In this document: piece after piece, positions 2,479 through 61,626 of the stretch | How the letters are laid out: each line of letters starts with the position of its first letter | Position numbering within the stretch: position 1 is the first letter of the stretch | From: Deltaproteobacteria bacterium | Lineage (GTDB): Bacteria > Desulfobacterota > Desulfarculia > JACQYL01 | DNA length: 64,000 bases | Assembly: GCA_016208165.1 (NCBI GenBank) | Contig: JACQYL010000062.1 | Span: forward strand, 1 to 64,000 | Direction of reading: 5' to 3' | The notes under the pieces: generated by a model | Database searches by the model: none | What the model was told of the DNA's origin: nothing | Seen by the model: only the letters and a program-made list of their open reading frames with translations | Translations under genes and position numbers: made by a program

Positions 2479-3330
2479 TTAATAGTTCAGCTGGTCGAAG
2501 GATGCGGTGAGGGCGACGAACGCGTCGATATCGAGGGATTCGGCCCGGACGCGTCCGTCGATGCCGGCCTGATCGAGGGCTCTCGCGATCCTGTCGGGGT
2601 GGGGTGATAGATACGGGCTGTTCATCAGGGCGTTCTTGATCATTTTTCTGCGGCTGCTGAAGGCGCCTTTTACTACGTGTTTGAACAGGGGCTCGTTGCC
2701 GCTTCTGCTCGGGTGGGGCCGGCGGAAATCCAGCTGAATCACGGTCGAGTAGACCTTGGGTTTAGGGTAAAAGGCCTCCGGTGGAATGGTCAACAGGCGT
2801 TTCGGCGTGGCATGGTATTGCATGAGCACGCTCAGTACGCCATAGGACTTGGTATTGGGATCGGCCAGCACGCGATCCGCCACCTCCTGCTGCACCATTA
2901 ATGTGGCGTTACGGATCAGAGGTGCGGATTCGATCAGTTTGTACAGAATGGGAGCGGACAGATTATAGGGTATGTTCCCCATCAGGATCAGCCCCTCGGA
3001 ATCCGACGCAAGAAGGTCCTGCAGATTCAGTTTCAGGAAATCCTTTTGAACCAGGGACAGATTGGACACCCGGGACAGGCGATCTTCGAGGTATTGAATC
3101 AGGTCCCGGTCGATCTCGACGGCGGTAACGAAGCGGACCCGCTCACAGAGGCAGGCGGTGAGGGCGCCCTTTCCGGGTCCGATCTCGATGACATGGTCTT
3201 CCGGTCCGACGCCACTGCGATCGACAATGGAGCGTATGATACTTCCATCCCTGAGGAAGTGCTGGCCCCACCGTTTCCGTGGCCTGTGCAGCATGGCGGG
3301 CGCCGGTTTGCATGGGTCTGTCGACGTCAT
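2479..3330 (-). CDS. rsmA: 16S rRNA (adenine1518-N6/adenine1519-N6)-dimethyltransferase RsmA
   Basis: A 283-residue protein when started at the ATG at 3330; an in-frame TTG 15 bases upstream is the alternative. It dimethylates two adjacent adenines in the 3' hairpin of 16S rRNA during small-subunit maturation. The N-terminal KRWGQHFLRDGS segment is diagnostic for the KsgA/Dim1 family. The SAM-binding motif I is seen as VIEIGPGKGALT, and the catalytic motif IV as NIPYNLSAPIL. The C-terminal FSSRRKMIKNAL segment also fits. Length matches the family. It is the last gene of the minus-strand group fbp-tsaD-rsmA, about 115 bases after the tsaD stop, a common pairing with tsaD. Confidence 0.96.
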   Translation of the reverse strand: MTSTDPCKPAPAMLHRPRKRWGQHFLRDGSIIRSIVDRSGVGPEDHVIEIGPGKGALTACLCERVRFVTAVEIDRDLIQYLEDRLSRVSNLSLVQKDFLKLNLQDLLASDSEGLILMGNIPYNLSAPILYKLIESAPLIRNATLMVQQEVADRVLADPNTKSYGVLSVLMQYHATPKRLLTIPPEAFYPKPKVYSTVIQLDFRRPHPSRSGNEPLFKHVVKGAFSSRRKMIKNALMNSPYLSPHPDRIARALDQAGIDGRVRAESLDIDAFVALTASFDQLNY

Positions 3331-3447
3331 TTCAGTCCCGTTCAAGGAGTTTCCAGAGAGCCGGAGTCGAAACCGGAATCCTGCGCCTCCCGCGGGATGA
3401 CGGAGGCTGAAAAGGTTTTGGAAGGGGGGACCCGTGAATGATCCGCA

Positions 3448-4399
3448 TCAAAGGCGCCCCACGGCGCCCCGCGAAGGCATACGCGAATAGGCGTCCATGT
3501 CCAGGTCGGAACGTACGCCCCGGCTCAGGAGATGAAATCCCATGGCCGCAACGCCCGCGGCGTTGTCCGTGCACAGTTTCATCTCGGGGATGAACAACCG
3601 GATTCCGGCTTCCCGCGTGGCGGTTTGGATCTTCTGTCGAAGACGGCTGTTTGCGGCTACGCCGCCGGCCAGGACCAGGGACCCGGTTCGGTTCATCTCA
3701 GCCGCGCGGAGGGATTTGCCCACCAGAACATCCACCACCGCTTCCTGAAACGAGGCCACGAGGTCCGCGGTGCGGCGATCCGCATCCGGACCGTCCAGGG
3801 GATGTTTGTTGAGATGAGTGATGACCGCCGTCTTGAGCCCGCTGAAACTGAAGTCCAGGCTGTCCGCGTCCATCATGGCCCTGGGAAAGGCGATGGCCTC
3901 CGGGTCGCCCCCCCGGGCCATATGATCGATAATGATGCCGCCCGGGTAGCCCAGACCGAGCAATTTAGCCGTCTTATCAAAAGCTTCGCCCGCGGCGTCG
4001 TCCCGGGTCTGGCGCAACAGCATAAAATCGAGGTAGTCCTTGACCAGATACAGGTTGGTGTGCCCGCCGGATACGACCAGGGCCGTAAAAGGGAATGACG
4101 GCGGTTCGTTCGAAAGAAAGTTCACGATGACATGCGCTTCTAGTTGTTACTCCGGGCCCCTGGGTGACGGCGATGCCGTGCAGGTCTCTCAGTTCGACTC
4201 CCGCCCGTTCCAGAGCCCGATCCAACACGGGCACGATGGCCTTTATGTGGGCCCGGGACGCCAGTTCAGGAACCACGCCGCCGTAAGCGGAGTGGATCTC
4301 GTCCTGGCTTGAAACCACGCCGGACAGGACGCGTCCGCCGTCTTCCACCACGGCCGCCGCCGTTTCGTCACATGACGTTTCTATACCCAGTATCAACAT
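3448..4399 (-). pseudogene. tsaD: tRNA N6-adenosine threonylcarbamoyltransferase TsaD, broken by an internal deletion
   Basis: TsaD transfers threonylcarbamoyl to A37 of ANN-decoding tRNAs. The N-terminal half starts at 4399 with [20 protein letters not shown] and runs to VTQGPGV near 4147, then continues in a wrong frame. The C-terminal half resumes in another frame at EAHVIVNFL near 4143, followed by [14 protein letters not shown] and ending at 3448 with the conserved CTDNAAGVAAMG. Between GPGV and EAHV, intact TsaD has about 28-30 residues (a GSLLVG..FAK helix and the first His of the H-x-E-x-H metal motif), and these are missing. So the gene has lost roughly 85-90 bases and is out of frame. 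TsaD is normally essential, so a second copy or an assembly error must be considered. Confidence 0.85.
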
Positions 4400-4427
4400 A
4401 GGCTTTCAGGTCCGAGGAGCGGGAAGG

Positions 4428-5444
4428 TCAGCGTTTCCCTTGAACGAATTCTTCCGCTTCCAGTACGTCTAATTTGCTTCCGATGTAGATCGGCACCCGC
4501 TGGTGAATGCTTTGGGGCTCGAAGTCCAACAATCGGCCTTCCCCGGTGCTGGCGTAACCACCGGCCTGTTCCACTACAAAGGCCAATGGAGCGCATTCGT
4601 ACAGATATCTCAGCTTTCCGAAGGCCTTTTTGGGGTCTTTCGTGTCCGAAGGGTACATGAAAATACCGCCCTTGAGGAGATTCCGGTGAAAATCGGCCAC
4701 CAAAGAGCCAACGTACCGGGAAGAGTAGGCTTTTCCTATAGCGTTCTTGGTTCCCTTGAGATAATCGATGTACCCGCGAACGCCTTCGCTCCAATAATTC
4801 CAATTCCCTTCATTCACGCTGTATACCTTTGCCCGTTCGGGTGTCTGGATGTTCGGATGCGAGAGGAAGAATTCGCCCACACTGGGGTCCAACGTGAATC
4901 CGTTCGCTCCGTTGCCCGTGGTATAGACCAGCATGGTGCTGGAACCGTAAAGAAAGTAGCCGGCGGCCACCTGTTCGTTTCCCCTCTGGAGAAAGTCACT
5001 GGTCAGCGGAGCGTTACCATCAGAGCACTTCCGGATCACGGAGAAGATGGTCCCGATGCTGATGTTCACATCGATGTTGGACGAGCCGTCCAACGGATCG
5101 AACAAAAGGAGATAATCGCCCGTATCGAAGCGTTCTGGAATCTCCATGATGTCCGCCACTTCCTCGGAGGCCATGCCGCATAGGACGCCGCACCGTTCCA
5201 AACGCCTGCAAATCAGGTTGTTGGCGAATTGATCGAGTTTTTGAACTTCTTCACCCTGTATGTTTACGTCGCCCGTGTAACCCATGGATTCGGCGAGTCC
5301 GGCCTGATTGACTTCGCGGGAGATGATCTTGGCGGCTACGACAAGTTCATTGATCAGTTTGGTGAAAGCGCCTCTGGCTTCCGGTTTGAGTTTTTCCTGC
5401 TCGTGAATGTGTTGCGTTAGTGTCATTCCCCTCTGTGCGGGCAT
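4428..5444 (-). CDS. fbp: class I fructose-1,6-bisphosphatase
   Basis: A 338-residue protein from the ATG at 5444, which has AAAGGAGG ten bases upstream. It hydrolyses fructose 1,6-bisphosphate to fructose 6-phosphate in gluconeogenesis. Visible family features are the metal-site sequence LLFDPLDGSSNIDVN (about residues 114-128), MASEEVADI with the acidic metal ligand, the YVGSLVADFHRNLLKGGIF substrate-binding stretch, and the C-terminal APLAFVVEQAGG motif. Length matches the family. It is the first gene of the minus-strand run fbp-tsaD-rsmA; only 28 bases separate its stop from the tsaD start, which suggests cotranscription. A transketolase gene occurs at the other end of the window. Confidence 0.96.
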   Translation of the reverse strand: MPAQRGMTLTQHIHEQEKLKPEARGAFTKLINELVVAAKIISREVNQAGLAESMGYTGDVNIQGEEVQKLDQFANNLICRRLERCGVLCGMASEEVADIMEIPERFDTGDYLLLFDPLDGSSNIDVNISIGTIFSVIRKCSDGNAPLTSDFLQRGNEQVAAGYFLYGSSTMLVYTTGNGANGFTLDPSVGEFFLSHPNIQTPERAKVYSVNEGNWNYWSEGVRGYIDYLKGTKNAIGKAYSSRYVGSLVADFHRNLLKGGIFMYPSDTKDPKKAFGKLRYLYECAPLAFVVEQAGGYASTGEGRLLDFEPQSIHQRVPIYIGSKLDVLEAEEFVQGKR

Positions 5445-11535: not shown

Positions 11536-14500
11536 CTAATTGGATGAATGCGGGGCTGCGCCGCCGGTCGCTTGGACGGCGCCCGGAGACGCAAACCATC
11601 GGTAAAATCCGACCGTCTGAGGGGTTCCTCCGCCAACGGACAGGACGCCGGACCCCTGCTCGGGATCGGGAAACGTGCATTCCAGCCGGCTGTCGCCACT
11701 GATGGAATCCACATTGACGCCGTCCGTTTTATCCGTATCGAAGAACACCTCGAAGGCGCGCGCATCCGATGAAAGGATGGCAACGACGGCCGTATCGTAA
11801 GTCTGGGTGTACAGGCTCATGCCGGCGGCCGCATCTCCGGGCGGCGCATTCTTGAAAATGCCCTGATAAACGTCCGCCGGCGCGTAGGCGAACCAGCGAT
11901 ACAGATTGAAATTCCGTACGGATTGTCCCGCGAGGGAGAGCGCCGCCGTACCTTGGCTCTCGTCGATGAAGGTGACGGTGAGGTGGTGACCCTGACTGCC
12001 GATATCGTCGACGTCCACTCCGTTGGAGAGGTCCGGATCCAGAAATGCATAGGCGGTTATGCCGTCCGGAGAGACGATGACCAGTATCGAGCCGGCTAGG
12101 TAGGTCTGAACGTAGAAATTCATCAACTCCGAAGATCCCGGCATGGGACCGTCTTTCCATATGCCGTCGGGAATTCCGGCGGGAGGGTTCGGGCCCGTGC
12201 TTGCCTGCCAGGCGTTCAGGAACACGTTCCCGTACACGATGCTGTTGATGGTCTGTTTGGTTTCGGTATAGAGGAGTGCGTCGTCCTCGAAGAACGGATC
12301 CCGGATTCCGGTACGGAACAGTTGCGCCGCCCAATCGAGGTAATGTGGCGTTTCGGTAAGCAGATAGGCATAAGCCAAGGCGTCGGCGCCCAGAAGGAGC
12401 CAGTTGTTGATGGAAGGTTCGCTGTTGTCGGCCCGGCCGTCGAACCACCACATATACGGGTAGGCGGCGCGTTCGCCACTACTGATGGAGGTGAGGGGCA
12501 GCCACGGGTACTGGTGCAGCCAATCGGCGAATTCCCGAAAGCTGTTTCCGGCGCTGTAGGTATCCGGCAGCCCGAACTCGGATCGCATGTCCAGGTAGGT
12601 CGCCAAGGCGCGAAGGTACATGTTGAGCAACCATGGACGCATCTCTTCAGCCTCGCCTGTAATCCCATTGATATAGGGTTGCGAGGCCGACCGGGCCCAA
12701 TCGACCAGAGCGTCCGCAACGGCCAGATACCTCGAATCGGCTGTTGCCCGATAAGCGGCAACGGCAATGACCAGGCTGTTGGCCGCCAGCCGTTCGCCCG
12801 CGGCGTACAAACCTCCCATTAGAGCGTAGCCTTCGCCGCTGCAGTCGGGAAATGCGGAACAGAGTTCACTGTCGTTTCGAAGACGGTACTCCACGCAATC
12901 GCTCAATTCCAGGGCGGATTCCAGCGCCTTTTCATAGCCGGTCAGATAGTAGGCGGTCAGCATACCCGGAACACCATAGGCCGTGTCCGTGGATCCGCTG
13001 TTCCTGTTCCGGTGGGGGTTGAGGAAACCGGGTTCGTCGTGCTCGCTATGACCGAAAGCAATGCCGTCTCCCCAGTGGCGCGGGGAATGGAGGTTGTGGA
13101 GGATGTCGATGTCGGCGAAATGCCGGTCCGCGGCTTCAGCCAGACGGAACCATCTTGCGTCGCCGGAACGGGCCCACTGAATCCACATGCCCAAGTCGTA
13201 GTCGTATTTGCAGTTCAGCGGGGCGACTTCGTAACCTTCGTAGTCTATGGGCCAGTCGCCGTAATCGAAGATGCCGTAAAAGTCCGATTGTTCGATGGCG
13301 TCGGTTAAGTTCCGGAAATAATGGGACCAATTATCGTCGTGGTCGGGAGAAGTATCCAACTGGTAATCGATGTATTGCTCATGGTCGGGCCAGTCGGCGC
13401 CGTTGGGCAGGGCGGTGCGACCGAATCCGCCGCTGTCCACGTACCATTTGGCGGGTGCAAGAGCAAAAAGGGGCTCCAACGCGGCGGGCGCTCCCGACGA
13501 TCCGAAGGCCAGCCAGAGTTCGTGCGTCTTATGCTCTCCGGCCCGCAAATTGAACGAGTACCCCGAGCCTCCGAACTCGTCAGGGAAAAGACCCAATTCC
13601 AGGGTTCCATCCGGGGCGGCGCGCAGGGCTTTGGGAAAGTTGCGCCAGAAATCCCGGACGCCGATGGCGCAGGAACCGCCGCTCCCGGTGACGCTCAACC
13701 ATCCTGCGGCCTGATCGCCGTTGTTCACCAGAGAACCGCCGGACGTTATACGGTAACCTTTGAAGCTGACATAGGACTGCATTCGAGGTCGTGTGTCCAG
13801 AGGGTTCGCGTCCCAATCCGTCATCGTGGGATAACGATTCCAGGAATCCGTGCCGCTGGAGTCCTGATACAGCAGGACGTTCCCAACGAGGTTTCCGGAG
13901 ACCGGATCTCCCTGTCCGCCCGCCTGATAAGTCAGGCCGGTACCCAGGCTTGCAGGGAAAACGAGTGAGAGATCCTCCAGATCTATGCTTCCGCCGGATC
14001 CAATATCAAAACAGGTGAGTTGCTCGTATTCTCCCAGAGGACAGAGGTTGTTGTTTTCCACCGTGTGAAACAGGCGGACCTTGGATTGCCCGGCGTAAAA
14101 CCAGTAGCGGTTCGTGTATTCCATCAGGGCCTGGCCGGTCGAATCCCGGTACGCGCCCCGGACGTGAACGGACGCGCGCATAGGCCCTTGCAGCACCACC
14201 GAAACAGTGACGGGTCCGGTTAACGTATCACTCAGGTCGCTGCCGGCCTTGAGACGCCCGTACATAGGCGACGCCAGTCCGGGCGCGCTTAACCCGCCGT
14301 GAGACTTGCTGATACGGAACTCAGCGGCTCCGGTGTTTACCGTGACGGTGTCCGCACCATCGGTAACCGTCAGCGAGGCGGATGGGGAAGGGCCGGGACC
14401 GCCCTGTTGCAGCGAATACACGGTTGTACCGGAAGCGGGGATGGATGCCTGGAAATCCAGAAGGACCCATCGGATCGGCTGTGAGGTTTGGGTTGGGGCG

Positions 14501-14760
14501 CCCCCCCATCGGGCCAGGGGCGTAAATTGCGCAGGTATCGGAACGCCGGTCGAATCCAGCAACCGAAGACCCGATGAGTCCACAACGTTCAGGCGCCGCG
14601 GGAGGGGTATGCCCGAGGTGATCGGCTCCATGGTGAGGCTATAAGTGTGAGGGTTCCGTATCTGGAGGGAAACGTTCAGCGCGGCTTGCGACTCGCTTGG
14701 CGGCATGCCGGCAAAGAGCAGGTTGAGTCCAACAAAGACCGTTAAGCACGTTTTTACCAT
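11536..14760 (-). CDS. large secreted PcRGLX/YetA-like protein with two C-terminal GIWKD modules
   Basis: A 1074-residue protein; the ATG at 14760 has CCGGAGGTG five bases upstream and begins a signal peptide (hydrophobic core LTVFVGLNLLFAG, cleavage near ESQA). The N-terminal domain (SGIPLPRRLNVVDSSGLRLL, then PAQFTPLARWGG and IRWVLLDFQA) matches the exo-rhamnogalacturonan lyase (PcRGLX/YetA) family. The middle, about residues 430-850, looks like an (alpha/alpha) barrel with W-, Y- and H-rich motifs such as DYGDWPIDYEGYE. The last 200 residues hold two copies of a module starting GIWKDGPMP and GIFKNAPPG, each ending in YRWFA. The same module occurs in the secreted protein at 59671-61626. Polysaccharide cleavage is likely but the substrate is not shown. 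Confidence 0.72.
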   Translation of the reverse strand: MVKTCLTVFVGLNLLFAGMPPSESQAALNVSLQIRNPHTYSLTMEPITSGIPLPRRLNVVDSSGLRLLDSTGVPIPAQFTPLARWGGAPTQTSQPIRWVLLDFQASIPASGTTVYSLQQGGPGPSPSASLTVTDGADTVTVNTGAAEFRISKSHGGLSAPGLASPMYGRLKAGSDLSDTLTGPVTVSVVLQGPMRASVHVRGAYRDSTGQALMEYTNRYWFYAGQSKVRLFHTVENNNLCPLGEYEQLTCFDIGSGGSIDLEDLSLVFPASLGTGLTYQAGGQGDPVSGNLVGNVLLYQDSSGTDSWNRYPTMTDWDANPLDTRPRMQSYVSFKGYRITSGGSLVNNGDQAAGWLSVTGSGGSCAIGVRDFWRNFPKALRAAPDGTLELGLFPDEFGGSGYSFNLRAGEHKTHELWLAFGSSGAPAALEPLFALAPAKWYVDSGGFGRTALPNGADWPDHEQYIDYQLDTSPDHDDNWSHYFRNLTDAIEQSDFYGIFDYGDWPIDYEGYEVAPLNCKYDYDLGMWIQWARSGDARWFRLAEAADRHFADIDILHNLHSPRHWGDGIAFGHSEHDEPGFLNPHRNRNSGSTDTAYGVPGMLTAYYLTGYEKALESALELSDCVEYRLRNDSELCSAFPDCSGEGYALMGGLYAAGERLAANSLVIAVAAYRATADSRYLAVADALVDWARSASQPYINGITGEAEEMRPWLLNMYLRALATYLDMRSEFGLPDTYSAGNSFREFADWLHQYPWLPLTSISSGERAAYPYMWWFDGRADNSEPSINNWLLLGADALAYAYLLTETPHYLDWAAQLFRTGIRDPFFEDDALLYTETKQTINSIVYGNVFLNAWQASTGPNPPAGIPDGIWKDGPMPGSSELMNFYVQTYLAGSILVIVSPDGITAYAFLDPDLSNGVDVDDIGSQGHHLTVTFIDESQGTAALSLAGQSVRNFNLYRWFAYAPADVYQGIFKNAPPGDAAAGMSLYTQTYDTAVVAILSSDARAFEVFFDTDKTDGVNVDSISGDSRLECTFPDPEQGSGVLSVGGGTPQTVGFYRWFASPGAVQATGGAAPHSSN

Positions 14761-15119
14761 GTTGCACCTCCGGCGGAAGTTGGAAACCGGTTGTTTCCTA
14801 TCCTTGCTTTTATCCGTAAGTTGCTTTGGCGGTCGAATCATCTGATCACGCCCTGGATGAGAAAAGTGGGTAACGGGAATTGGAACATGTGGAACGGCGA
14901 GGCGGTTACGTTTTGTCTCTCTTATAACTATGGGCTCAATCCGTGTGACGGGTCAACAAAAAGATCTGTAATCAGTCCGATCCAAATGCGGGGAAGATCC
15001 TGGGAAGGGGTCTGGGACGGTTCGTAGCGGTGTGAGGATGAGAAGCTATGATCGAAGCGGAGATTTCAGGGTGCAAGTAACGCCCGGCGCTGACCTATTC
15101 CGGGTTCGTGAGGGAGGAG

Positions 15120-32794: not shown

Positions 32795-35644
32795 TTATTT
32801 TTCCTTTAAATTGGGTTCTTCAAAATATCGGGGGGGCGAATCGGAATGTTTGATCGATTTCCTGATAAGGGCGTTCATGTCTCGCAGTTTATAGGGTTTC
32901 TTGATGATGTCCAATGCGCCGAGGTTCATCAATTCTTCTTGCTCGATGTGAGTGAAATATCCGCTGGCCACAACCACCTGCACATGGGGGTCCAGTTCTT
33001 TCAAAGCCTTCAGGCACTTCTTTCCTCCCATGCCGGGCATGTCGAGATCAAGGATCATGAGATCAATTCCGGCTTTTTCCTTCTGATATATTTCGATCGC
33101 CTGTTCCCCTGTTTCGGCCGTGAAGACCGAATAACCCATCTGATGCAGGTAGTCTCGCAGCAGCCTGGCTATGACCGGTTCGTCGTCGACCACCAGGATG
33201 GTTTCCTGTCCCGGGGATTCTTCGTCGTCTTGCGGTTGGCTTTCTGTTTTCGAGACGGCGTCGCCGGATCCGGACAATGCCGGCAGCCATATGTCAAAAC
33301 GGGCTCCTTCGCCGGGGGGGCTAACGGAATCAACGTAGCCTCCATGGGCTTTCACGATGCCGAAAACGGTCGAGAGCCCCAGGCCGGTTCCTTTGCCCAA
33401 CTCTTTTGTGGTGAAAAAGGGTTCGAAGATGTGGGCGAGGATGTTGGGAGGAATTCCCGGTCCGCTGTCCTGAAAGACGATGCGGACGTAGTCTCCGTCG
33501 GGCAAGGGCAGAGGCTGCGGTCTGGTATGCGAATCGATTCGAACGTTCTCACATTCGATGGTGATCCTTCCACCTTCCGGCATGGCGTCGCGTGCGTTGG
33601 TGGCCAAATTCAACAGTATCTGCTCCAGTTGAGCCGGGTCGGCTTTCACCTTTAGCAGTCCGCCCGGAAGACGGGCCTCAAGGGCGATCATCTTTGGAAT
33701 GGTTCGTTCCAACAGCAGCAGGGTTTCCCTGACCACATCATGCAGATCGATGGAAGACAGTTTAGGTTCGATTTTTCTGCTGAAGGTCAGAAGTTGCCGG
33801 ACCAAAGCGTTTGCGCGTTCCGCCGCCAGCGAGATGCTCGTCAACCGTTCCTCGTTGGCTCGGTCCAGTGAGTGAGAATCCAGCATCAGGTGCGAGTGCC
33901 CGCTGATGACCTGCAGGAGATTGTTGAAGTCGTGGGCAATGCCGCCGGCGAGAGTGCCCAACGCCTCCATTTTCTGGGCCTGCTGAAGCTGGTCCTGGAG
34001 CAGCTTCATCTTTCTATCGGCCTCGTAGCGTCCCGTAATATCTCGCCCCACGGCGTTGACGAATACATTTCCATCAGGGTCCGTCACCAAGACGCTCCGG
34101 TACTCGATCAGGTACCTGGCGCCTTCTCTTGACTCGTAACTGACCACTCCGAATGCTTGGCCTTCTTCCTTGATTTTCTCCAAATAGGATTGAAACAACT
34201 CAGGATCGACATCCCGGGCTATGAACTCGGACATATTCCTTCCCGCCACTCCTTCTTCGGCGTAGCCCAGGGCTTCAGCGGCGCTGCGATTTACAGTAAG
34301 GATGTTGCCTTCGATATCATGAGTGGAGATCCAGTCATTGATGCCGTTGAACAGATATCGGAAACGCTGTTCCGATTCTTTGAGCGCTTCCTGGGTCATC
34401 TCGATTTCGATCAAGCGCTGTTGCAGATCCTCCGCCCTCTGATGGAGCTGTTCCAACAGTTGAGCGTTGTGCAGGGCCAGGGCGACTTCGTTGGCCATAG
34501 CCTGCAGGAACGGTTTTTCTTCGTCGAATCGACGATGGGTGAGCGATCCGATGCCGATCAGTCCGATGGCCTGGCCGCGGCTGATCAAAGGTAGAGCAGC
34601 GAAGGACTTGAAATGCGCATGCTTGCACTCTTCGCGTATACAGCGCGGATCCGAATGGATGTCGTAGGAAAAAGCCGGTTCCCCATGTTCGGCCGCCAGT
34701 CCGCAGAGACATTCCCCCATCAAGTGGATGCCGGGGTCTTTCGGGTCCTCCTCTTTCCCCCCGGACATGGATCCTCGGGTCAGCAATCGGTTCCCATCGC
34801 GCAGAAAGAAATACGCCCCGTCCGGGGCCACGGACTCGGCGACCAAGCGTAGGGCAGAGCCGATGACCCCGTCCATGGAAAGATCAAGGCCAACCTGCCG
34901 GGCGAACGTATGCAATATATTCAGCTCTCGGATTCTGCTTTGGAGGGCCCGTTTCGCTCCGGCATTTTCCGGGAATTCCAACTGGTTCCGGTCCTGTATT
35001 CGGATCGGTCGACGGGAGGCGCCTTCAATCTCGTCTTTCAGCAGGAAGGTTCGAAGAATGGTGGCCACCACGTTGCCGAGCAAGATAGTTTCCCGTTGGC
35101 GCGGCCGGTCGAACGGTTTTTCCTCTCCGAAGGAGATGTTCATGACCCCTAGTTTCCGGCCCATGGATTCCAAGGGCAGGGCCGCCAGGGAAATAGGCGT
35201 TGAAAGTCCGCTCTCTTTTTTCAGCAGATCGGCGTGGGGGCTTTGGCTGTCCCAGAAAATGGGACGGTTGTCCTTAAAGGCCCGGCCTGCGATACCTTCC
35301 CCCGGCCGAAAGGAGAGAGCCCGATTGTAGCCGGCATGATCAAGCCCCAGAAGCTCCATCTGTCCGAAAGCGGCCAGCAATTGAAGACTGTCGGTCTCTT
35401 CACGGTATGTCAGCAGTGAGCAGGCAGTCACATCATTCAGTTCCGCAACGATGGTCTCGGTGATGCGTCTGGCGGCAACGTGAAGAGATTCGATTCCGGC
35501 CGGAATCGAGGTCAGTGCGGAAATCGAAGATAGAAGACGCACAGAAGATCCGAGCCTTCCACTCATCTCATTCAGCCTCTCGGACAGATTCAGGATCTGT
35601 TCGGCAAGTTTATGGTTGTCCGATCCGTTAGGCATGTTGTCCAT
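32795..35644 (-). CDS. hybrid sensor histidine kinase: GAF-GAF-PAS-HisKA-HATPase-REC
   Basis: A 949-residue soluble kinase; the ATG at 35644 has GGAAGG ten bases upstream, and the gene overlaps the HDOD stop by 17 bases. Domains in order: a GAF domain (about 50-205), a second GAF domain (about 235-395), coiled coil, a PAS domain with PAC (about 425-545), HisKA with GGIAHDFNNLLQVISGHSHL (phospho-His near residue 570), HATPase_c (NLATNARDAMPEGG and EPFFTTKELGKGTGLGLSTV) and a C-terminal receiver with DLMILDLDMPG (Asp near 870). No membrane segments are seen, so the signal is cytoplasmic. The output is phosphotransfer, target unknown. Confidence 0.94.
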   Translation of the reverse strand: MDNMPNGSDNHKLAEQILNLSERLNEMSGRLGSSVRLLSSISALTSIPAGIESLHVAARRITETIVAELNDVTACSLLTYREETDSLQLLAAFGQMELLGLDHAGYNRALSFRPGEGIAGRAFKDNRPIFWDSQSPHADLLKKESGLSTPISLAALPLESMGRKLGVMNISFGEEKPFDRPRQRETILLGNVVATILRTFLLKDEIEGASRRPIRIQDRNQLEFPENAGAKRALQSRIRELNILHTFARQVGLDLSMDGVIGSALRLVAESVAPDGAYFFLRDGNRLLTRGSMSGGKEEDPKDPGIHLMGECLCGLAAEHGEPAFSYDIHSDPRCIREECKHAHFKSFAALPLISRGQAIGLIGIGSLTHRRFDEEKPFLQAMANEVALALHNAQLLEQLHQRAEDLQQRLIEIEMTQEALKESEQRFRYLFNGINDWISTHDIEGNILTVNRSAAEALGYAEEGVAGRNMSEFIARDVDPELFQSYLEKIKEEGQAFGVVSYESREGARYLIEYRSVLVTDPDGNVFVNAVGRDITGRYEADRKMKLLQDQLQQAQKMEALGTLAGGIAHDFNNLLQVISGHSHLMLDSHSLDRANEERLTSISLAAERANALVRQLLTFSRKIEPKLSSIDLHDVVRETLLLLERTIPKMIALEARLPGGLLKVKADPAQLEQILLNLATNARDAMPEGGRITIECENVRIDSHTRPQPLPLPDGDYVRIVFQDSGPGIPPNILAHIFEPFFTTKELGKGTGLGLSTVFGIVKAHGGYVDSVSPPGEGARFDIWLPALSGSGDAVSKTESQPQDDEESPGQETILVVDDEPVIARLLRDYLHQMGYSVFTAETGEQAIEIYQKEKAGIDLMILDLDMPGMGGKKCLKALKELDPHVQVVVASGYFTHIEQEELMNLGALDIIKKPYKLRDMNALIRKSIKHSDSPPRYFEEPNLKEK

Positions 35645-36515
35645 CAAACAGTCCTTCCTGCCATCCGCCGATCAATTTGGGAAGCGCTTCCTTCGCGTTT
35701 CTCGCTACCTCCTCGACCATGTCTTCTTCCAGTCGAGTCTGCTTCAGTATGTAGTCGTTATCAATGGGGCGTGACTTGTGTATTAAGCCGAAGCCTAAAC
35801 GTTTCACTTCTCTGTCCGCCAGTGCGATCAAAGAGGTCGAAAAAGGGCAATAGTTGTCCGCGAAAGGATTATGGTGGTACCGGATGGCGAGCAGATGAAT
35901 ACTGGGCAAGCCCCACTTCGTGGCCAGCATATAGCCCAACAGCGTATGGGGAACGCCCAATTCTTCCTCGGCCTGGTAGTAGGGTTCCCCGTTGTCCAAT
36001 TTCTCGATGATCCGGGACAGATCCTCGTGCAAGTGCGTGCTGAGTATCAGCTTGCCGATGTCATGCATCAGCCCGGCCACCAGAATTTCGCCCGGAGAAT
36101 CGTAGCGCGCTTTTTCCGACAGTTCCCTTGCGAACCAGGAAACGGAGAGGCTGTGAGTCCACAAGCCTTTCGCGTCAAACTGCGGGGGGGTCATGCCGGG
36201 ATCGAAGACTTTTGTTAGGCAGGTACCCAGGGCCAGGAGTTGCAGTTCTTTGTATCCTAGTGCGACGACGGCCCGTCTTATGGTGGTGATCCGTTGAGAG
36301 AAGCCGTAGAAGGGGGAGTTAGCGAGGCTCAACACCTTGGAGGCCAACCCCTGATCGCTCTCGATGATCCTCTCCAGCTTGGCCGCGTCCGTCCTATTGT
36401 CACCCACGGCTTCCACCAGTTGATGGAGCACGTGGGGAATGGACGGTAACCGCTCTATTCGGAAAAGACTCTTGGCGATTTCGGAGAGACGGTTTTTGTG
36501 TTTCTGATCAACCAT
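35628..36515 (-). CDS. HDOD domain signalling protein
   Basis: A 295-residue protein if started at ATG 36515; upstream frame remains open to 36686 and no ribosome site decides the start. The HDOD core has KLERIIESDQGLASKVLSLA, NSPFYGFSQRITTIRRAVVA and LGYKELQLLALG, then GLMHDIGKLILSTHLHEDL and YHHNPF. The H-D pair (MHDIGK) is intact here, unlike in many HDOD proteins. Such proteins bind partners or nucleotides and tie metabolism to c-di-GMP or stress signalling. The stop overlaps the start of the hybrid kinase gene, and a secreted protein follows the kinase, forming a three-gene operon. Confidence 0.85.
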   Translation of the reverse strand: MVDQKHKNRLSEIAKSLFRIERLPSIPHVLHQLVEAVGDNRTDAAKLERIIESDQGLASKVLSLANSPFYGFSQRITTIRRAVVALGYKELQLLALGTCLTKVFDPGMTPPQFDAKGLWTHSLSVSWFARELSEKARYDSPGEILVAGLMHDIGKLILSTHLHEDLSRIIEKLDNGEPYYQAEEELGVPHTLLGYMLATKWGLPSIHLLAIRYHHNPFADNYCPFSTSLIALADREVKRLGFGLIHKSRPIDNDYILKQTRLEEDMVEEVARNAKEALPKLIGGWQEGLFDGQHA

Positions 36516-54597: not shown

Positions 54598-56334
54598 TTA
54601 ACCCTCGCCCCGTATCGCGGCGAGCAGTCGTTCCTTGGTATCCGTCTTGGACCGGAAGGCGGACGCCCCGGCCTCGATCATGGCGTCGGCCAGTTCGCTC
54701 TCGTCATACGCGGACAAGCCGACGATGCGGATGTGGGGAAATTCCGAATGAATGATCCGGGTGGCTTCCAGACCGTTCATCTTCGGCATGTTGATGTCCA
54801 TGAGAATGACGTCCGGAACCAGTTCCCGGACCAACCGGACGGCTTCTTCTCCGTCCAACGCCCGGCCCACGAGCTCGATGTCGGGTTGCGGGCCGAGCAT
54901 CCTGGACAGTCCGTCCAGTATGACCGGATGATCGTCCACCAGCATTACGCGGAGCTTTTTCCCAGGTCCCTGCGCGACGGGCTGCGCCATGGACGGCTCT
55001 TCGGTCGCGGCGCTGACCGAGCCCTGCGGCTCTTCAGCGGATGCTTTCTCATCCAAAGGGATTGTCAGGGAAATGGTCGATCCCGCATTCGACGCGCTTT
55101 GGATCTCGAAGCGGCCGCCAAGGTGAGCGAAGCGCTCTCGGATACCGATCAGCCCGAATTTTTGATCGTGGCCTGTATCCTCTAGTATGGCATCCGCATC
55201 GAATCCCGCTCCACAATCGCTGACCACAATGCGCAACTGACCGTTTGCTCTCTCCATTTTCAGAGTCGCCGCTTTCACTCCCGAGTGCTTGACCGCGTTA
55301 AACAGCAACTCCCGTATGGACTGGAACACCAGCACGTTGACATCTTGCCGATCCAGAGTGATTTCGGCCGCGACGTCCAAGGTAATCTCGAACCCGTAAT
55401 TTTCGCGCATCCATCGGGCCAGCCACTGCAGGGATGCTGATAGATCTCCGGACTGGAGGACCGGCGGCGACAGTTCGGCGTTGAGGGAACGCATGGCCCG
55501 GATCGACCGGTTGATCAAATCCAGGACGTGCGCGGCGTCCGGTTTCAGGCCGTCGTGAATGTCCGGCATCAGCAGTTCCTGGCCCATCTTGGCGCCCACC
55601 ATGAGCTGCTGGATATGGTCGTGCAGAATCTCGGCGATTCGCCGGCGTTCGCGCTGCTCAGTCAATGTCAGTTGGGACGATAACCGGGCGAGTTGTTCGG
55701 TTTTGCGGTTGAGTTCCTCCGTTCGATCCCGGACGCGCTGTTCCAACTCGCGGGTCAATGCCTCGAGTTTTCGTTCCGCCTGGGTGCGCCTGGTGATATC
55801 CACCAGGGCCAGGCGCCAATGCTTCGTACCCTCTTTCTCGTCGATTTTTGCCGTGGTTTCCATGTGCACGTGGACAGGTCCGCTTTTTCCGCCCTTGAGC
55901 CGCAACTCGGCGGGCCCCGATGATCGGGCTAAAGCGAGCCTCCTCAACAGGGAATAAAAGATGTGAATATCGTCCGGATACACCCATAACATGAACGAAG
56001 ATCCGTGTAGGATTTCTCGAGTCCCTTTGAGCATTCGCGCGGCGGCCTCGTTGACCTTTTCGATCATGCCCTTTTCGTTCAACGTCACATAGGCTACGGG
56101 CGCGGAGTTGTACAGATCGAAAAACTCGTTTCGAGAGGCCTCGAGTTCCTCCTTGGCAAACCGCAGCTCCTCGTTTTGAAGCTCGAGTTCGATCTGATAG
56201 ACCTCGAGTTCATGGGCCAAACGCAAAAGGTCCTCTTCTTGGATATCCGGTTTTACGACTCCATTGTTTTCCAGGAGCCGTTCCGCTTCTTTTCGCAACT
56301 TGAAAAAGGCTTGATTTGACGAGGCACGGTTCAC
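54598..56334 (-). CDS. PAS - HisKA_3 histidine kinase - receiver protein
   Basis: A 578-residue soluble kinase. A GTG at 56334 with CCGGAGGTGG upstream decides the start and overlaps the stop of the CheB-CheR gene (GTGA). The order is a helical N-terminus and coiled coil (about 1-65), a PAS domain (about 68-185), a coiled coil, HisKA_3 (RRRIAEILHDHIQQLMVGAK, His in L-H-D), HATPase_c (IRELLFNAVKHSGVKAATLK, GLIGIRERFAHLGGRFEIQS) and a C-terminal receiver (MLVDDHPVILDGLSRMLGPQ, VILMDINMPK). Kinases of this NarX/DegS class usually pair with LuxR-type regulators; here the receiver is fused and no HTH follows, so the output is phosphorelay. Confidence 0.92.
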   Translation of the reverse strand: MNRASSNQAFFKLRKEAERLLENNGVVKPDIQEEDLLRLAHELEVYQIELELQNEELRFAKEELEASRNEFFDLYNSAPVAYVTLNEKGMIEKVNEAAARMLKGTREILHGSSFMLWVYPDDIHIFYSLLRRLALARSSGPAELRLKGGKSGPVHVHMETTAKIDEKEGTKHWRLALVDITRRTQAERKLEALTRELEQRVRDRTEELNRKTEQLARLSSQLTLTEQRERRRIAEILHDHIQQLMVGAKMGQELLMPDIHDGLKPDAAHVLDLINRSIRAMRSLNAELSPPVLQSGDLSASLQWLARWMRENYGFEITLDVAAEITLDRQDVNVLVFQSIRELLFNAVKHSGVKAATLKMERANGQLRIVVSDCGAGFDADAILEDTGHDQKFGLIGIRERFAHLGGRFEIQSASNAGSTISLTIPLDEKASAEEPQGSVSAATEEPSMAQPVAQGPGKKLRVMLVDDHPVILDGLSRMLGPQPDIELVGRALDGEEAVRLVRELVPDVILMDINMPKMNGLEATRIIHSEFPHIRIVGLSAYDESELADAMIEAGASAFRSKTDTKERLLAAIRGEG

Positions 56335-59300
56335 TTTTCCACCTCCGGGGAAGGAGCGGGAATTCCGGTGACATCCTCTATGGCAAGCAGTATTCGGTCT
56401 TGATCTCTTTCTCGCTCCCGAAGCATCCGGGCGTTCAGCAGCATCCGCTTGAATCCGATTTCCGGAAACCGGTGCTCGACCAGGTAATCCTGAAAGCATT
56501 GGTTGTGCTCGATGACTTCTTGCAGGAGTTTGTTCAGTTCGGGGATGTCCCACTGACGGTTGCCCAGCTCGAAGAGCCTTTTTCCCTCCGTCTCATCCGC
56601 AGTCGTCCGGAAGGTATCGTAAAAGCTGCGGTTGCTCGAGACCACCCGCATTTGGCTGTCCAGCACCAGCAGGGATTCCCGCACCGTATCCACGATGAGT
56701 TCCGCGTACTGTTTCGCCGACGAGAGGGCCTTGGCGCTCATCTCTTCCAGTTCCTTCTGAACCTTCTTTTGAGCGTCGATATTGATAAAGGTCAGCACCA
56801 CGCCGTCGATGATATGTTCCTCCTCGCGGTGCACCATGATGCGCATGCGATACCAGTGTCCTTCCTTGGTGCGGACGTCCTCATCGACGTTCGAGAGGGT
56901 TTTCAGAACCTGACGGACCCTTCCAGGCATATTGTCGTATTCCAGGTTGTGAGCGAAGTGCTCGACAGGACGTCCGAGGTCGGAATCCATCAAGTTGAGG
57001 AGCTGGGTGGCCTCGGGAGTAAAACGCTTCACCTTGAGCTCGTTGTCCAGAAACACGATGGCGACGTGGGTGCTGTTAAGCACGGAACTGATGGCGTTGT
57101 ACGCGTCTGTCAGCTCCCCCATCTTGCTGTTCAGTTCATTGTTGACCGTGTTGAGTTCTTCGTTGAGGGACTGAAGCTCTTCTCTGGAGGATTCCAACTC
57201 CTCGTTGGTGCTCTGCAACTCCTCGTTGGACGAGTGCAGCTCCTCGTTGGTCGACCGGAGCTCCTCGTTGGACGTCTGAAGCTCCTCCATGGCGCTTCGG
57301 TAATCCTGTCGCACCCGCATCAATTCCTGTTCGAGGTCCGCTTCCCGCCGGCTCGCATCCTCATCCGCCCGGCGGTCTTCCTTCTGTTGCCGGGGATGGG
57401 CCGGTTCCGGCGTTTCCTCGAAAATCACCATGCGGCAATCTCGTAAGCGAGGCTCGCTGAAACGCTTTACCACCAGATCGATGCGCTGGTACTCGTGGTT
57501 GGTCTTGACCCGAACGTCCGTTTCCCGGATTTCGCCCTCGGCTTTATCCACCCGGCGCAGGGCGGAGAGCAGGGGAAAACGCAGGCCTTCCCGGGCCATG
57601 TCCCCGATCTGCATGGAGGGTTCGCCCGGAGCGGGCTCGAGGTATTTGCCCGTACGCCCGTGAAAAAAGAGGATTTCTCCTGCCGGATTTACGACCACGC
57701 AGGCGGGCGTGTGTTCCTGCATCAGGATCTTCTCCGCCTCACGCCGGACGTCCACTTCCGGCTTTTCGGGTTGCTCCTCGTGCTTGGTCTGTTCAATCGA
57801 ACCTATTAGTCTTCTGGACGCCGTGGGGAACTGGACTTGCGGGCGGATCAGGTGGTTCTTCTTTCGATAGATACTGTGCTGCTTGCTCAGCGGCTCGAAA
57901 AGATCATGATGGCGGCCGAGGCCTTCCGAAGCGCCCAGAAACAGGGCGCCCCCCTCTCGGAGGGAATAGTGGAAAAGGGGGATCACTTTGTTTTGGGCCT
58001 CGGGCTTGAGATAGATGAGGAGATTGCGGCAGACCAGCAGATCCAGCTTGGAAAACGGGGGGTCGGACAGGATGTTCTGCTCGGCGAACACCACCAGTTC
58101 CCGGATGTCGGACTTGACTCGATACCGATTGTCCTCTTTGCTGAAAAAACGGTCGAGGCGCTCGGGGCTTACATCGGACGCGATGTTTTGAACATAGGTC
58201 CCCTGTCGGGCTCTTTCGATGGCCCGGACGTCGATATCCGTACCGAAAATCTGCAGTTTGCGGGCGTCCCCCCTTTCTTCCAGACACTCCCGCAGCAGGA
58301 TGGCAATGGAGTAGGCCTCCTCTCCGGTGGCGCAACCCGGAATCCAAACCCGTAATTCGCCGTCTTCCGCCTTGGAAACCAGGTCCGGGAGCACCTGTTG
58401 TCTCAAAAAGGCGAAAGCCTCCGGATCCCGAAAGAAACTGGTGACCCCGATCAAAAGGTCCTGAAACAGGATGCGGATCTCTTCGGGTTCCCGGTGCAGA
58501 AGGTCCAGGTAAGCCGCTGCGTTCCGGCACCGGGTGATGGTCATGCGCCGCTCGACGCGCCGGATCAGGGTGTTTTCCTTGTACAGGGAAAAATCGTGTT
58601 TGGTGCGGGTGGCCAGAAAGGCCAATATTCGGCCCAGGGGGTCGATGTCTTCTGTTTTCTTATTGCTTTCGGATATGTTTCGAATGGATACGGGATATTT
58701 GAAATACTCGATCAGGCGCTCGGGCATATCCGATGGATGGTCCACGTAATCCACCAGGCCCGTCTCGATAGCGCTCCTGGGCATGCCTGCGTGGCGGGCC
58801 GAATCCGGGTTTTGAGCCACCGCCAGGCCGGACTTTTCCTTGATCAGCCGAAGCCCCTGGGTGCCGTCGGTGCCGGTTCCGGATAAAATGACGCATGCCG
58901 CCGATTCGCCGCGCTCCTGGGCCAGATGTTTAAAAAAGAGATCCACCGGCATGTGGAGCTCGGGCCGGTCCGGCCTCTTCTTGAGATGGAACGTCTCCCC
59001 GTCCAGAACGGGGTCGCTGTCCGACGGCGGCATGTAGACGGTGTTGGGCTCCACCGGCATGTCTTCTTCGATGACTTTGACGGGGATTTTGGCTCTTTTC
59101 TTGATGAGATCCGGGAGCAGACTGTGATGCTGCGGGTCGGTATGTGTGATCACCACGAAGGCGAGCCCGCTGTCGGCCGGAACCGCCTCGAAGAAAGCCT
59201 CGAGAGGTTGCAGCCCACCGGCGGAGGCCCCCATCGCCACGATGGGAAACCGCTCCCCTTCCGTATCCTCGGTGGAGGAGCTTTCCGCTTCGGGTTCCTT

Positions 59301-59510
59301 TTCCTTTTCGGCTTCCAGGCCGGGGTTATCCCGGGCCTCGCCTTCGAGCGCTTCCGTCTCCTCGGAAGCGTTTTCCTCCAGGGTGAGTTCTTCTTCCCGC
59401 TCCGCTCGTTTCTGGTCCGGATGCTTACCGTCGCCGGCTTTCGATCGGCGCTTCGGCCGAGCTGCTTTTTCCGGTTCACGGGTTTTTTGGTCTTTGTCCT
59501 GGTTCGCCAT
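56331..59510 (-). CDS. CheB-CheR-PAS fusion protein
   Basis: A 1059-residue protein; ATG 59510 has GGAGG six bases upstream. An acidic, Lys/Glu-rich linker (residues 1-85) precedes a CheB-type methylesterase domain (IVAMGASAGGLQPLEAFF, THTDPQHHSLLPDL, VILSGTGTDGTQGLRLI), then a CheR methyltransferase (NTLIRRVERRM, GVTSFFRDPEAFAFL, PGCATGEEAYSIAILL, DLLVCRNLLIYL). A long coiled coil of repeated S-N-E-E-L heptads (about residues 735-805) leads to two PAS domains (with SVLNSTHVAIVFLDNELKVK and VRESLLVLDSQMRVVSSNRS). Such fusions adjust signalling of atypical chemoreceptor or kinase systems. It is upstream of, and overlaps, the HisKA_3 kinase. Confidence 0.94.
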   Translation of the reverse strand: MANQDKDQKTREPEKAARPKRRSKAGDGKHPDQKRAEREEELTLEENASEETEALEGEARDNPGLEAEKEKEPEAESSSTEDTEGERFPIVAMGASAGGLQPLEAFFEAVPADSGLAFVVITHTDPQHHSLLPDLIKKRAKIPVKVIEEDMPVEPNTVYMPPSDSDPVLDGETFHLKKRPDRPELHMPVDLFFKHLAQERGESAACVILSGTGTDGTQGLRLIKEKSGLAVAQNPDSARHAGMPRSAIETGLVDYVDHPSDMPERLIEYFKYPVSIRNISESNKKTEDIDPLGRILAFLATRTKHDFSLYKENTLIRRVERRMTITRCRNAAAYLDLLHREPEEIRILFQDLLIGVTSFFRDPEAFAFLRQQVLPDLVSKAEDGELRVWIPGCATGEEAYSIAILLRECLEERGDARKLQIFGTDIDVRAIERARQGTYVQNIASDVSPERLDRFFSKEDNRYRVKSDIRELVVFAEQNILSDPPFSKLDLLVCRNLLIYLKPEAQNKVIPLFHYSLREGGALFLGASEGLGRHHDLFEPLSKQHSIYRKKNHLIRPQVQFPTASRRLIGSIEQTKHEEQPEKPEVDVRREAEKILMQEHTPACVVVNPAGEILFFHGRTGKYLEPAPGEPSMQIGDMAREGLRFPLLSALRRVDKAEGEIRETDVRVKTNHEYQRIDLVVKRFSEPRLRDCRMVIFEETPEPAHPRQQKEDRRADEDASRREADLEQELMRVRQDYRSAMEELQTSNEELRSTNEELHSSNEELQSTNEELESSREELQSLNEELNTVNNELNSKMGELTDAYNAISSVLNSTHVAIVFLDNELKVKRFTPEATQLLNLMDSDLGRPVEHFAHNLEYDNMPGRVRQVLKTLSNVDEDVRTKEGHWYRMRIMVHREEEHIIDGVVLTFINIDAQKKVQKELEEMSAKALSSAKQYAELIVDTVRESLLVLDSQMRVVSSNRSFYDTFRTTADETEGKRLFELGNRQWDIPELNKLLQEVIEHNQCFQDYLVEHRFPEIGFKRMLLNARMLRERERDQDRILLAIEDVTGIPAPSPEVEK

Positions 59511-59670
59511 GACGGCCTCCATTGCCGCGGATCTATGCGCTGCTATTCAACATGCTTGGTATAAGCCATATTCGGTACGAGTCCAATTTTTTTCAATGGG
59601 ATACGGGCTGCATCTGTCCGGACCGAGGGGCCTTCGAGCATGAGCGTCGCGCCTCCGGTCCCGATGCACC

Positions 59671-61626
59671 CTAATATCCCACGAAATCCGCGTCCGACAC
59701 GCTTTCCGTCAAACCGGAGAAGGTTCTGAAGCCCGGGTCGAAACTCCAGCCCGTCAGGGTCGGCGTCACCGTTCCGCTCCATCCATAGGGTACGGTCGAG
59801 GAATAGTCGCCGGAACCGTCGGTCTCCACGGACCATGGGCCCTCGTCGCTCGTGAACACCACATCCACCTCCGCCAGATAGGCCCCTCCTAAGGATTGGT
59901 CGGCGACAATGTTCCCCGCGATGACGAGGTCCGCAAACCCGGTGTAATCCTTCACGGAATCCGCGGTCATGTTCGAGTAGCCGATGGAAGGAGGCTGAAA
60001 CGTCCAGCCGGTCTTGGCGGCCAGCGCGTATCCGGACCAGCCGGACGGGACGGTGAAGGTATAGGCCCCCCCTTCGTCGGTGGTCGTGCTTCCGCCTGCG
60101 CTGTCACCCGCGTACGAGATCGTGACGCCGGCGATGCCCCGGCCGCCGTCCTCCGGCCGGGCCGTGACCGTGCCCGAGAGGGTGATCGATGTCTGGAGGG
60201 GAGCGCCCGTGAAATCGACGGCCGTGGCCGGCGAAGTCACGCCGTCAAGAATGATTTCCGCGGGCAAAAAGATGTAAGCGGCCAGACTTGCGGACACGGC
60301 TCCGGCCCAGCCGTAGGGAACCTGCGTGCTCCACGCGCCCCGGGCGTCGGTCCAGGTGGATCCGTATCCCTGAAGGGTGACTTCCACCCACTGGAGCGCG
60401 AGACCTGTTTCTCCGTCGGTGACGGTTCCCGAAACAGGTACATATTGCAGGGAAGCCGTGAAGTTCAGGGTCCGGTTTGTCGTGACATCGGAAAACGACG
60501 GGGAGCCGGGGCTGAAGGTGTATCCGACGAGGGACGGGGTCAAAAGGCCGCTCCATCCATGCGGAACCGTAAGCGAGTATTCGCCCGAACCGTCCGTGAC
60601 GGTCGAGCCCCCGCCGTTGTCCGCCGTAATGGCGACCCCCGCCAGGGGGGCGCCGGAGGGCGAGAGGGTGACAACGCCGCCGATGGTCGGATTCCACCCC
60701 ATCTCGCGCACCTTGACGGTTTCCGAAGCCATGCAGGCATACGAAAGCCCGGAGGCGCTCATGGTGACCGTCACCTCGTATTCGCCGGGCAGGCTATACG
60801 TATGCTTGGGGTTTTGTTCCGCGCTGGCGCCGCCGTCTCCGAAATCCCAGCTCCAACTGTCGAAGCCGATGGTCGAAATATCGACAAACGCAACCTCGAA
60901 AGGGGCCGCTCCCGTTGTGGGCGTGAACTGGAAGCCGACGTCCAGCGTTCCGGGAGAGAACGCTTTGACAACGTCATAGGTGAAGTTGGCGGCGGGGGCA
61001 TAGGTCGGCGCCGCGGCAGGCCCCACCGTGACAATCCCCTTGTCGAATCCGGTGAAGACCAGGTCAAGCCGTTCACTCTGATCCGCCAGGTTGGCGGCCG
61101 AGAAGAGGAACATCGATAGGTCGCCCGCGAAGGCCTGAAACGTGACGCCGTCGAAGGTGTAAACCACGACGCTGGATCCGGCGGCGTAATCCTGCACGTA
61201 CAAGCTGAACGCGGAAGTCGCGTCTTTCCAGATGCCGGAGTGCATGGTTCGGACGGCCGGGTGCTTCTTCTCGATGTCCGTAATCGTCGTCGTATGGCTG
61301 ATGTTGTTCGTTATGGCCGCCACGGCATGATTATGGGAAATAAACGTGATCGACAGAGTCTTGCTCCCGTCCGGAACGTCCATGGACACGGCTTGGAATT
61401 GACCGTCGGATAGGTCCGATAAGAAGGCGTAAAAACGGACCGCGTCCGCGGTATAAACGGCCAAGGTGGATCCGGTGGAATAGTGCTGGATGTAGAAATT
61501 ATGCTTCGCGGGATCGGCGCCGTCCTTCCAGATTCCCTGATATTGGGCCAACGCGTTTGCCGCCGGGAGGCAGACGAAGGCGGCGAGAAGGAGAATTACG
61601 AGCCCCACTCTTGTTTCGATTTTCAT
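59671..61626 (-). CDS. secreted protein with GIWKD modules, PKD domain and Cna/CarboxypepD-like repeats
   Basis: A 651-residue protein; AGAGGA precedes the ATG at 61626 and a signal peptide follows (VILLLAAFVCLPAANALA). Residues about 28-115 and 131-205 are two copies of a module starting YQGIWKDGAD and HSGIWKDATS, each with an F/L-Y-x-Q-x-Y-x-x-G-S-x-x-x-V-Y core. Residues about 230-315 are a PKD domain (FDSWSWDFGDGGASAEQNPK and HTYSLPGEYEVTVTM). Four repeats of about 80 residues follow, each with a VPYGWSG-type signature (VPHGWSGLLTP, VPYGWAGAVSA, VPSGWSGYALA, VPYGWSGTVTP). It looks like an extracellular binding or adhesion protein. The first module pair is shared with the protein at 11536-14760. 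Confidence 0.8.
   Translation of the reverse strand: MKIETRVGLVILLLAAFVCLPAANALAQYQGIWKDGADPAKHNFYIQHYSTGSTLAVYTADAVRFYAFLSDLSDGQFQAVSMDVPDGSKTLSITFISHNHAVAAITNNISHTTTITDIEKKHPAVRTMHSGIWKDATSAFSLYVQDYAAGSSVVVYTFDGVTFQAFAGDLSMFLFSAANLADQSERLDLVFTGFDKGIVTVGPAAAPTYAPAANFTYDVVKAFSPGTLDVGFQFTPTTGAAPFEVAFVDISTIGFDSWSWDFGDGGASAEQNPKHTYSLPGEYEVTVTMSASGLSYACMASETVKVREMGWNPTIGGVVTLSPSGAPLAGVAITADNGGGSTVTDGSGEYSLTVPHGWSGLLTPSLVGYTFSPGSPSFSDVTTNRTLNFTASLQYVPVSGTVTDGETGLALQWVEVTLQGYGSTWTDARGAWSTQVPYGWAGAVSASLAAYIFLPAEIILDGVTSPATAVDFTGAPLQTSITLSGTVTARPEDGGRGIAGVTISYAGDSAGGSTTTDEGGAYTFTVPSGWSGYALAAKTGWTFQPPSIGYSNMTADSVKDYTGFADLVIAGNIVADQSLGGAYLAEVDVVFTSDEGPWSVETDGSGDYSSTVPYGWSGTVTPTLTGWSFDPGFRTFSGLTESVSDADFVGY

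Follow-up and report, generated by a model that had tools for sequence, protein, structure and literature searches.

A predicted calycin-like beta-barrel module used as a tandem pair on exported proteins of a deltaproteobacterium

The large protein P0001 of the window (the whole stretch of DNA that was analysed, 64,000 nucleotides of contig JACQYL010000062.1 in the Deltaproteobacteria bacterium assembly GCA_016208165.1) ends in two consecutive, similar units of about 95 residues, and the locus raises the question of what these units are and what a pair of them does at the end of a lyase-type protein. Both units, first noticed by eye in the letters of the DNA, are real by pairwise alignment and profile HMM; the pair (dyad) spans 11575-12171 of the minus strand and forms the last 210 residues of P0001, where GIWKDGPMP begins at residue 893 and GIFKNAPPG at 994, and no coding frame was found in the plus-strand frame of 11590-12175. 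A search for solved relatives of P0001 at E<=0.01 found none. Of the motifs that the original prediction ascribed to both units, the aromatic core (FYVQTY and LYTQTY), the following acidic segment (AYAFLDPD and AFEVFFDTD) and the terminal Y-R-W-F-A are present in each, but D-G-V occurs only in unit 2 and reads N-G-V (SNGVDVDD) in unit 1. Related units had also been noted at the start of the exported protein P0002; two are found there, starting at residues 31 and 131 and without Y-R-W-F-A. The genes and units of the window are:

11536..14841, minus strand: P0001 gene (1101 aa), PcRGLX-like (lyase-type) body and two C-terminal units (Pfam PcRGLX_2nd 6e-12, PcRGLX_3rd 6.4e-6)
11872..12171, minus strand: P0001 unit 1, PDGIWKDGPMP...FNLYRWFAYAPAD, predicted eight-stranded barrel (alignment, profile HMM, structure prediction)
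11575..11868, minus strand: P0001 unit 2, YQGIFKNAPPG...VGFYRWFASPGAV (alignment and profile HMM)
59671..61626, minus strand: gene of the exported protein P0002 (651 aa), with signal peptide, adjoining dyad, PKD domain and CarboxypepD_reg-like repeats (translation and Pfam)
61246..61542, minus strand: P0002 dyad unit 1 (alignment and profile HMM)
60958..61242, minus strand: P0002 dyad unit 2 (alignment and profile HMM)
60742..60909, minus strand: P0002 PKD domain, residues 240-295 (PKD_4, 2e-15)
59671..60687, minus strand: P0002 CarboxypepD_reg-like repeats, residue 314 to the end (PF13620, four stretches, 1.4e-14)

Five of the six possible pairs among these four units align with local scores that exceed every one of 2000 shuffles: 146 (highest shuffle 51), 130 (49), 88 (61), 73 (58) and 123 (60). 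The sixth, unit 2 of P0001 against unit 2 of P0002, scores 50, which is not significant pairwise (reached by 12 of 2000 shuffles). In a first pass over the fetched stretches at i-E<1e-4, the HMM built from the four window units matched 46 ORFs with 79 domains between them, a count that includes the second window pair twice (locus L021 overlaps the window). Chance repeats are rejected on this result.

The same contig carries a third dyad gene just to the right of the window (C62:65923-66519, ORF L021:5912-7459, minus strand), encoding 516 residues with a signal-peptide-like start and no Pfam match. Large sensory proteins are encoded on the minus strand of the window at 32795-35647 and 54598-59522; by eye, their translations look like a hybrid histidine kinase of GAF/PAS type and a fusion resembling CheB/CheR, the latter adjoining a kinase-regulator gene.

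Family size, pairing and spread

Searches of Pfam-A 2025, NCBIfam 20.0 and PHROGs 4 placed the units in no known domain family. Among 66 units, matches called at E<=1 in Pfam were scattered over 21 families with at most two members each (best E 0.0024), none of them a lipocalin, avidin or related family, and those in NCBIfam over 16 families with one member each; 20 units had no consistent match in PHROGs. Among PDB sequences nothing fell below E 0.89 with the profile of 66 units or below 0.061 with that of 50 units, and the module was not found in the literature searched. Its description as new was thus apt for the family and for the limit of two units; the fold and the kind of module (accessory) are already known.

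The prediction of two copies and a related pair was correct as far as its view of the DNA extended, but the family is genome-wide, with about 80 units, and the pair is the recurring unit. A single unit as query had 71 matches in the genome (E<=1e-3), a profile of 66 units 80, and a mixed profile of 50 units 79. With units called by profile HMM in 37 fetched stretches and then three more, 48 ORFs contain units: 35 have two, 13 have one and none has three or more (45 ORFs, with 32 dyads and 13 singles, plus three added later, each a dyad). Spacing within the 32 dyads is 96-112 residues. Pairing is not obligatory, since 13 of the 48 ORFs have one unit, and an ordinary variable-copy repeat is rejected by the absence of three or more units from all 79 ORFs (48 here and 31 of other genomes). 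Rows dropped from these counts are L090 (the same gene as L117), L118-L127 (genomes already covered by L088-L117), the window gene as it recurs in L021 and the other-frame fragment of L041. The dyad ORF of L041 (contig C24, 7283-7946) is broken inside unit 2, with the remainder in another frame, apparently by a frameshift or sequencing error. Single-unit genes can be clustered: three lie in a row at L043 (C26), and two are adjacent at L046 (C65), both of which look FGE-sulfatase-like (the Pfam scan covered the first).

In a sample of the phylum, 5 of 395 genomes have units: the genome of the window, three metagenome-assembled genomes (MAGs) of one genus (G067, G103 and G138, with 19, 37 and 30 matches) and one further MAG (G084, with 19), so that the hosts in the sample are this bacterium and two other lineages. 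All three genomes examined of the family to which G067, G103 and G138 belong have units. Of 63 genomes of the window's class, its own is the one with a match; the 50-unit profile found no units in the other 62. Among 31 sampled ORFs of the four other genomes (30 loci read, against 105 matches in total), 28 have two units and three have one, two of these three being truncated; the 3 kb loci can cut ORFs, which raises the number of units placed as whole proteins. Scans of named genomes with a first pattern (A2) gave 13 stretches, none confirmed; a second (A4) gave 25, of which 10 were confirmed, all in four MAGs titled Deltaproteobacteria bacterium nDJH13bin5, nDJH8bin5, nDJH6bin12 and Meg22_1214_Bin_77, which are the same four genomes by identical sequence. 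PMC7602337 mentions nDJH bins and also cites work on Dajiuhu; DJH may stand for Dajiuhu. Beyond the phylum, the search consisted of pattern scans, plasmids, phages and viral contigs, and other phyla may hold units. Plasmids and phages gave no match to the pair at E<=0.1 and none of 17 pattern-fitting stretches of viral contigs was confirmed, and a plasmid or phage module is rejected.

The pair travels as a unit, because the matrices of identity among unit-1 sequences and among unit-2 sequences correlate across dyads (r 0.71 over 31 dyads and r 0.82 over another 23, in each case with none of 2000 permutations as high; r 0.88 for only five dyads of G084, with 63 of 2000 permutations as high). 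The family and its pairing are well supported, and the pair spreads as one cassette. Trees of the units were built from 98 columns for 134 rows and 99 columns for 140 rows, with many forks unresolved and L041 left out. In the first tree (134 units) two changes suffice to separate the three lineages, and the 23 unit-1 sequences of the DJH genus all fall into a single clade (SH-aLRT 97); in the second, with three further dyads added, four changes are needed. The mixed dyad seen in this second tree belongs to a protein of the window's genome:

Contig C119, ORF 3286-5439: L139, arylsulfotransferase-like protein with a dyad of the other genus's type (Pfam and tree)

Its unit 1 falls within the DJH unit-1 set (99) and its unit 2 within the DJH unit-2 set (97). 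Two other dyads on contig C119 (133.6 kb) are of the home type (L029) and of a third type (L140), and contamination is rejected as an explanation for the foreign-type dyad because the home-type one lies on the same contig. Whole-dyad transfer and deep retention both fit the placement of L139, and separate origin of the dyad in each lineage cannot be told apart from gene conversion on these alignments. The single N-terminal units of three collagen-like proteins (L028, L030, L033) group with unit 2 of the L025:7238-8653 dyad (98), and thus some singles may derive from dyads.

Predicted fold and conserved residues

For a single unit, structure prediction from 20 aligned rows (units of the window and of the named MAGs) gave a model of good confidence, an antiparallel all-beta meander of eight strands without helix (mean pLDDT 85.7, five models 83.1-85.7; pTM 0.78), the topology expected of a calycin, and the small beta fold that had been suggested for the unit is borne out by this model. 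The model of the dyad (pLDDT 66.9) is too weak for a reading of the pair interface. A Foldseek search of the PDB listed lipocalins, nitrophorins and streptavidin, with a best E of 0.034 and none at or below 0.001, and BFVD gave no match below E 0.05. VIA-align gave Z scores of 8.7 for Tp0751, 8.7 for a D-aminopeptidase domain, 8.5 for streptavidin and 8.3 for Cap15; 11 of 1000 chains reach at least 8 (whole-model count), and scores below 8 are common by the tool's own warning. The chains matched at Z 8 to 8.7 are barrels of the lipocalin/avidin type. Pfam families missing from these fold lists are not thereby ruled out.

The most conserved residues of 50 aligned units are G3, Y24, Q22, Y20, I4, G27, W5 and D36. 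The sites of most interest in unit 1 of P0001 are:

12157..12165, minus strand: G3-I4-W5, strand A, where calycins have G-x-W (of 50 aligned units, all 50 have G3; residue 5 is W in 82% and Y in 14%)
12100..12114, minus strand: Y20-V-Q22-T-Y24, strand B, the best-conserved stretch (in 50 units, Y20 92%, Q22 98% and Y24 98%)
11896..11898, minus strand: R92, strand H, aligned with Tp0751 Arg226 (K/R/H in 84% of 50 units)

The glycine of G-x-W on strand A corresponds to the first structurally conserved region of calycins (SCR1) and is invariant, and the basic residue 92 of the last strand would, by the end points of the alignment, take the SCR3 position, at which calycins have a basic residue that packs on the tryptophan of SCR1; this agreement at strands A and H is independent of how the searches were set up. 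Between 82 and 98% of the 50 units, which come from three lineages, keep Y20-Q22-Y24 and D36. Strand B has variable hydrophobic residues at 19 and 21 and conserved aromatic or polar ones at 20, 22 and 24; both faces of strand C are hydrophobic, and strands F and G by contrast alternate cleanly. This pattern is read here as a putative conserved binding face and a possible pair interface. The fold type is therefore supported as calycin-like, by prediction, and homology to calycins is only possible, since the units lack a lipocalin or avidin match in Pfam and the Foldseek E values are weak.

Carriers, export and the role of the pair

The Pfam scan of the carriers in this genome covered 39 proteins, then four more, plus the two window proteins, and excluded three of the 48 ORFs (L041, L046:6890-8071 and L050:6913-7764). 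Beyond the units, the carriers belong to unrelated kinds of protein. Peptidase carriers are of the subtilase/S8 (L026), clostripain C11 (L036) and papain C1 (L045) types; other carriers include FGE-sulfatase (L025, L046), a BD-FAE-like hydrolase (L048), the arylsulfotransferase of L139 and a multihaem cytochrome (L057); structural carriers have beta-helix (L047, where the match is below the cut-off, L053 and L055), collagen (L028, L030, L033), RCC1 (L044) and, in many cases, PKD domains. No Pfam match at E<=0.001 was obtained for 13 of the 39. A HEIGHSLG motif in L022 was read by eye and is not a Pfam call. Fifteen carriers of the other genomes include subtilase, reprolysin M12 (M12B), C10 with Spi inhibitor, papain with a lectin-like domain, beta-helix, BACON and PPC (the last just under the cut-off), and seven of the 15 had no Pfam match.

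Such a list would suit a digestive module that binds carbohydrate or protein, with the dyad binding an environmental polymer or substrate rather than the cell itself, since many carriers are secreted hydrolases or lyase-like proteins (P0001, S8, M12B, C10, C1, C11, BD-FAE-like) and these are the usual hosts of such modules; the collagen-like, multihaem cytochrome, RCC1/PKD and FGE-sulfatase-like carriers share no substrate, and this explanation is judged unlikely.

The carriers are associated with export: by a crude rule, 43 of 45 unit ORFs have a signal-peptide-like N-terminus, compared with 113 of 307 other ORFs of at least 200 aa at the same loci. Among 43 judged ORFs (without L041 and L055), the units are N-terminal in 22, C-terminal in 15, internal in five and the whole protein in one. 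The type II ATPase GspE scores over the cut-off in all five dyad genomes, so that ordinary type II export is available. It is quite improbable, given these two results, that the dyad is itself an export signal, a barrel recognised by an outer-membrane machine as in Slam/DUF560 (T11SS) systems or as the C-terminal domain of T9SS cargo is recognised: the placement of the units differs from that of C-terminal signals, and a general route out of the cell exists. The idea draws on the many unrelated cargos that share one terminal barrel module, on the common C-terminal eight-stranded barrel of T11SS cargo of known structure (as described in PMC8406197) and on the presence of the NHBA barrel among the matched folds (NHBA-C3, 5o1r, Z 7.5). 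SlipAM (PF04575) and the T9SS translocon SprA (TIGR04189) matched none of the five dyad genomes, with control genomes equally silent for both. Very doubtful is a ligand-free intramolecular chaperone, spacer or protease-shielding domain (linker or pro-domain), which would account for terminal placement, several peptidase carriers and a fold search that also returns small barrels of many functions, but would need neither the polar Y20-Q22-Y24 and D36 kept in so many units nor a copy number that stops at two, when that of linkers usually varies.

The most economical reading of export, terminal placement, unrelated carriers and a conserved face is an attachment tag. The two units of P0001 would together make up one instance of a new module, a calycin-like beta barrel of eight strands and about 95 residues that is deployed in tandem pairs. 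The pair would be a mobile, non-catalytic accessory cassette, in most cases attached to one end (N- or C-terminal) of an exported protein. Its ligand would be the same for all carriers and would lie on the cell surface or in the extracellular matrix; by binding it, enzymes, cytochromes and fibres with no relation to one another would be kept in place for the cell, and the linkage of two barrels would add avidity. This is argued from architecture alone and is given a probability of about 0.55; the original suggestion that the module binds sugars or surfaces would agree with it, and the attachment function, a ligand common to all carriers and avidity as the purpose of pairing are inferred rather than observed. 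A more tentative extension, on which we would not bet, makes the dyad a general address tag for exoproteins, whose two calycin barrels would read one self ligand (a putative surface or matrix receptor) and display any protein that gains them; movement of the dyad as a whole between lineages is included in this extension because both units of L139 fall in clades of another genus.

One unlisted domain family is the common element of 48 ORFs of one genome, mostly exported proteins that would otherwise be annotated piecemeal, and it yields a testable rule, that the dyad marks an exported and probably displayed protein. With a profile of the family, carriers could be annotated in related bacteria, most of them uncultured, and there would be a handle for finding the receptor.

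Comparison with known systems

The top structural match of the unit model is Tp0751 (pallilysin, an adhesin of Treponema pallidum with an outlier lipocalin barrel, PDB 5jk2; Z 8.7, 2.7 A over 86 residues), in which G125 and W127 belong to SCR1 and R226 to SCR3 (PMC5040251). Residues 1 to 94 of the model align with 123 to 228 of the chain, placing G3, W5 and R92 on Gly125, Trp127 and Arg226 if the ends are ungapped; identity is 13%, and the two have no sequence match. Tp0751 is a single barrel with an N-terminal helix, neither a dyad nor an accessory cassette on other proteins. Streptavidin and avidin are eight-stranded calycin barrels (3wzo, Z 8.5, 3.1 A over 89 residues, 11% identity); residue 1 of the model is matched to residue 17 of streptavidin and residue 95 to residue 135, and the G-x-W would presumably fall on G19-T20-W21. 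The T11SS (Slam/DUF560) cargo barrels, as in NHBA and TbpB, resemble the unit as eight-stranded terminal barrels on exported proteins, but are C-terminal, whereas the dyad is N- and C-terminal alike.

A dockerin has a pair of calcium-binding F-hand repeats, each some 22 residues long; the unit, with about 95 residues, is predicted to be all beta and has no dockerin match in Pfam. PPC, PKD and dockerin-type modules are small, non-catalytic and recur at the ends of many unrelated exoenzymes. The dyad is like them in recurring terminally on unrelated exoproteins and is not similar to them in sequence, and it is a separate module from PKD and PPC, since these domains co-occur with it in the same proteins. 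A calycin-type barrel would thus join the short list of folds that recur as accessory tags (CBM, dockerin, PKD, PPC), among which a limit of two units is unusual.
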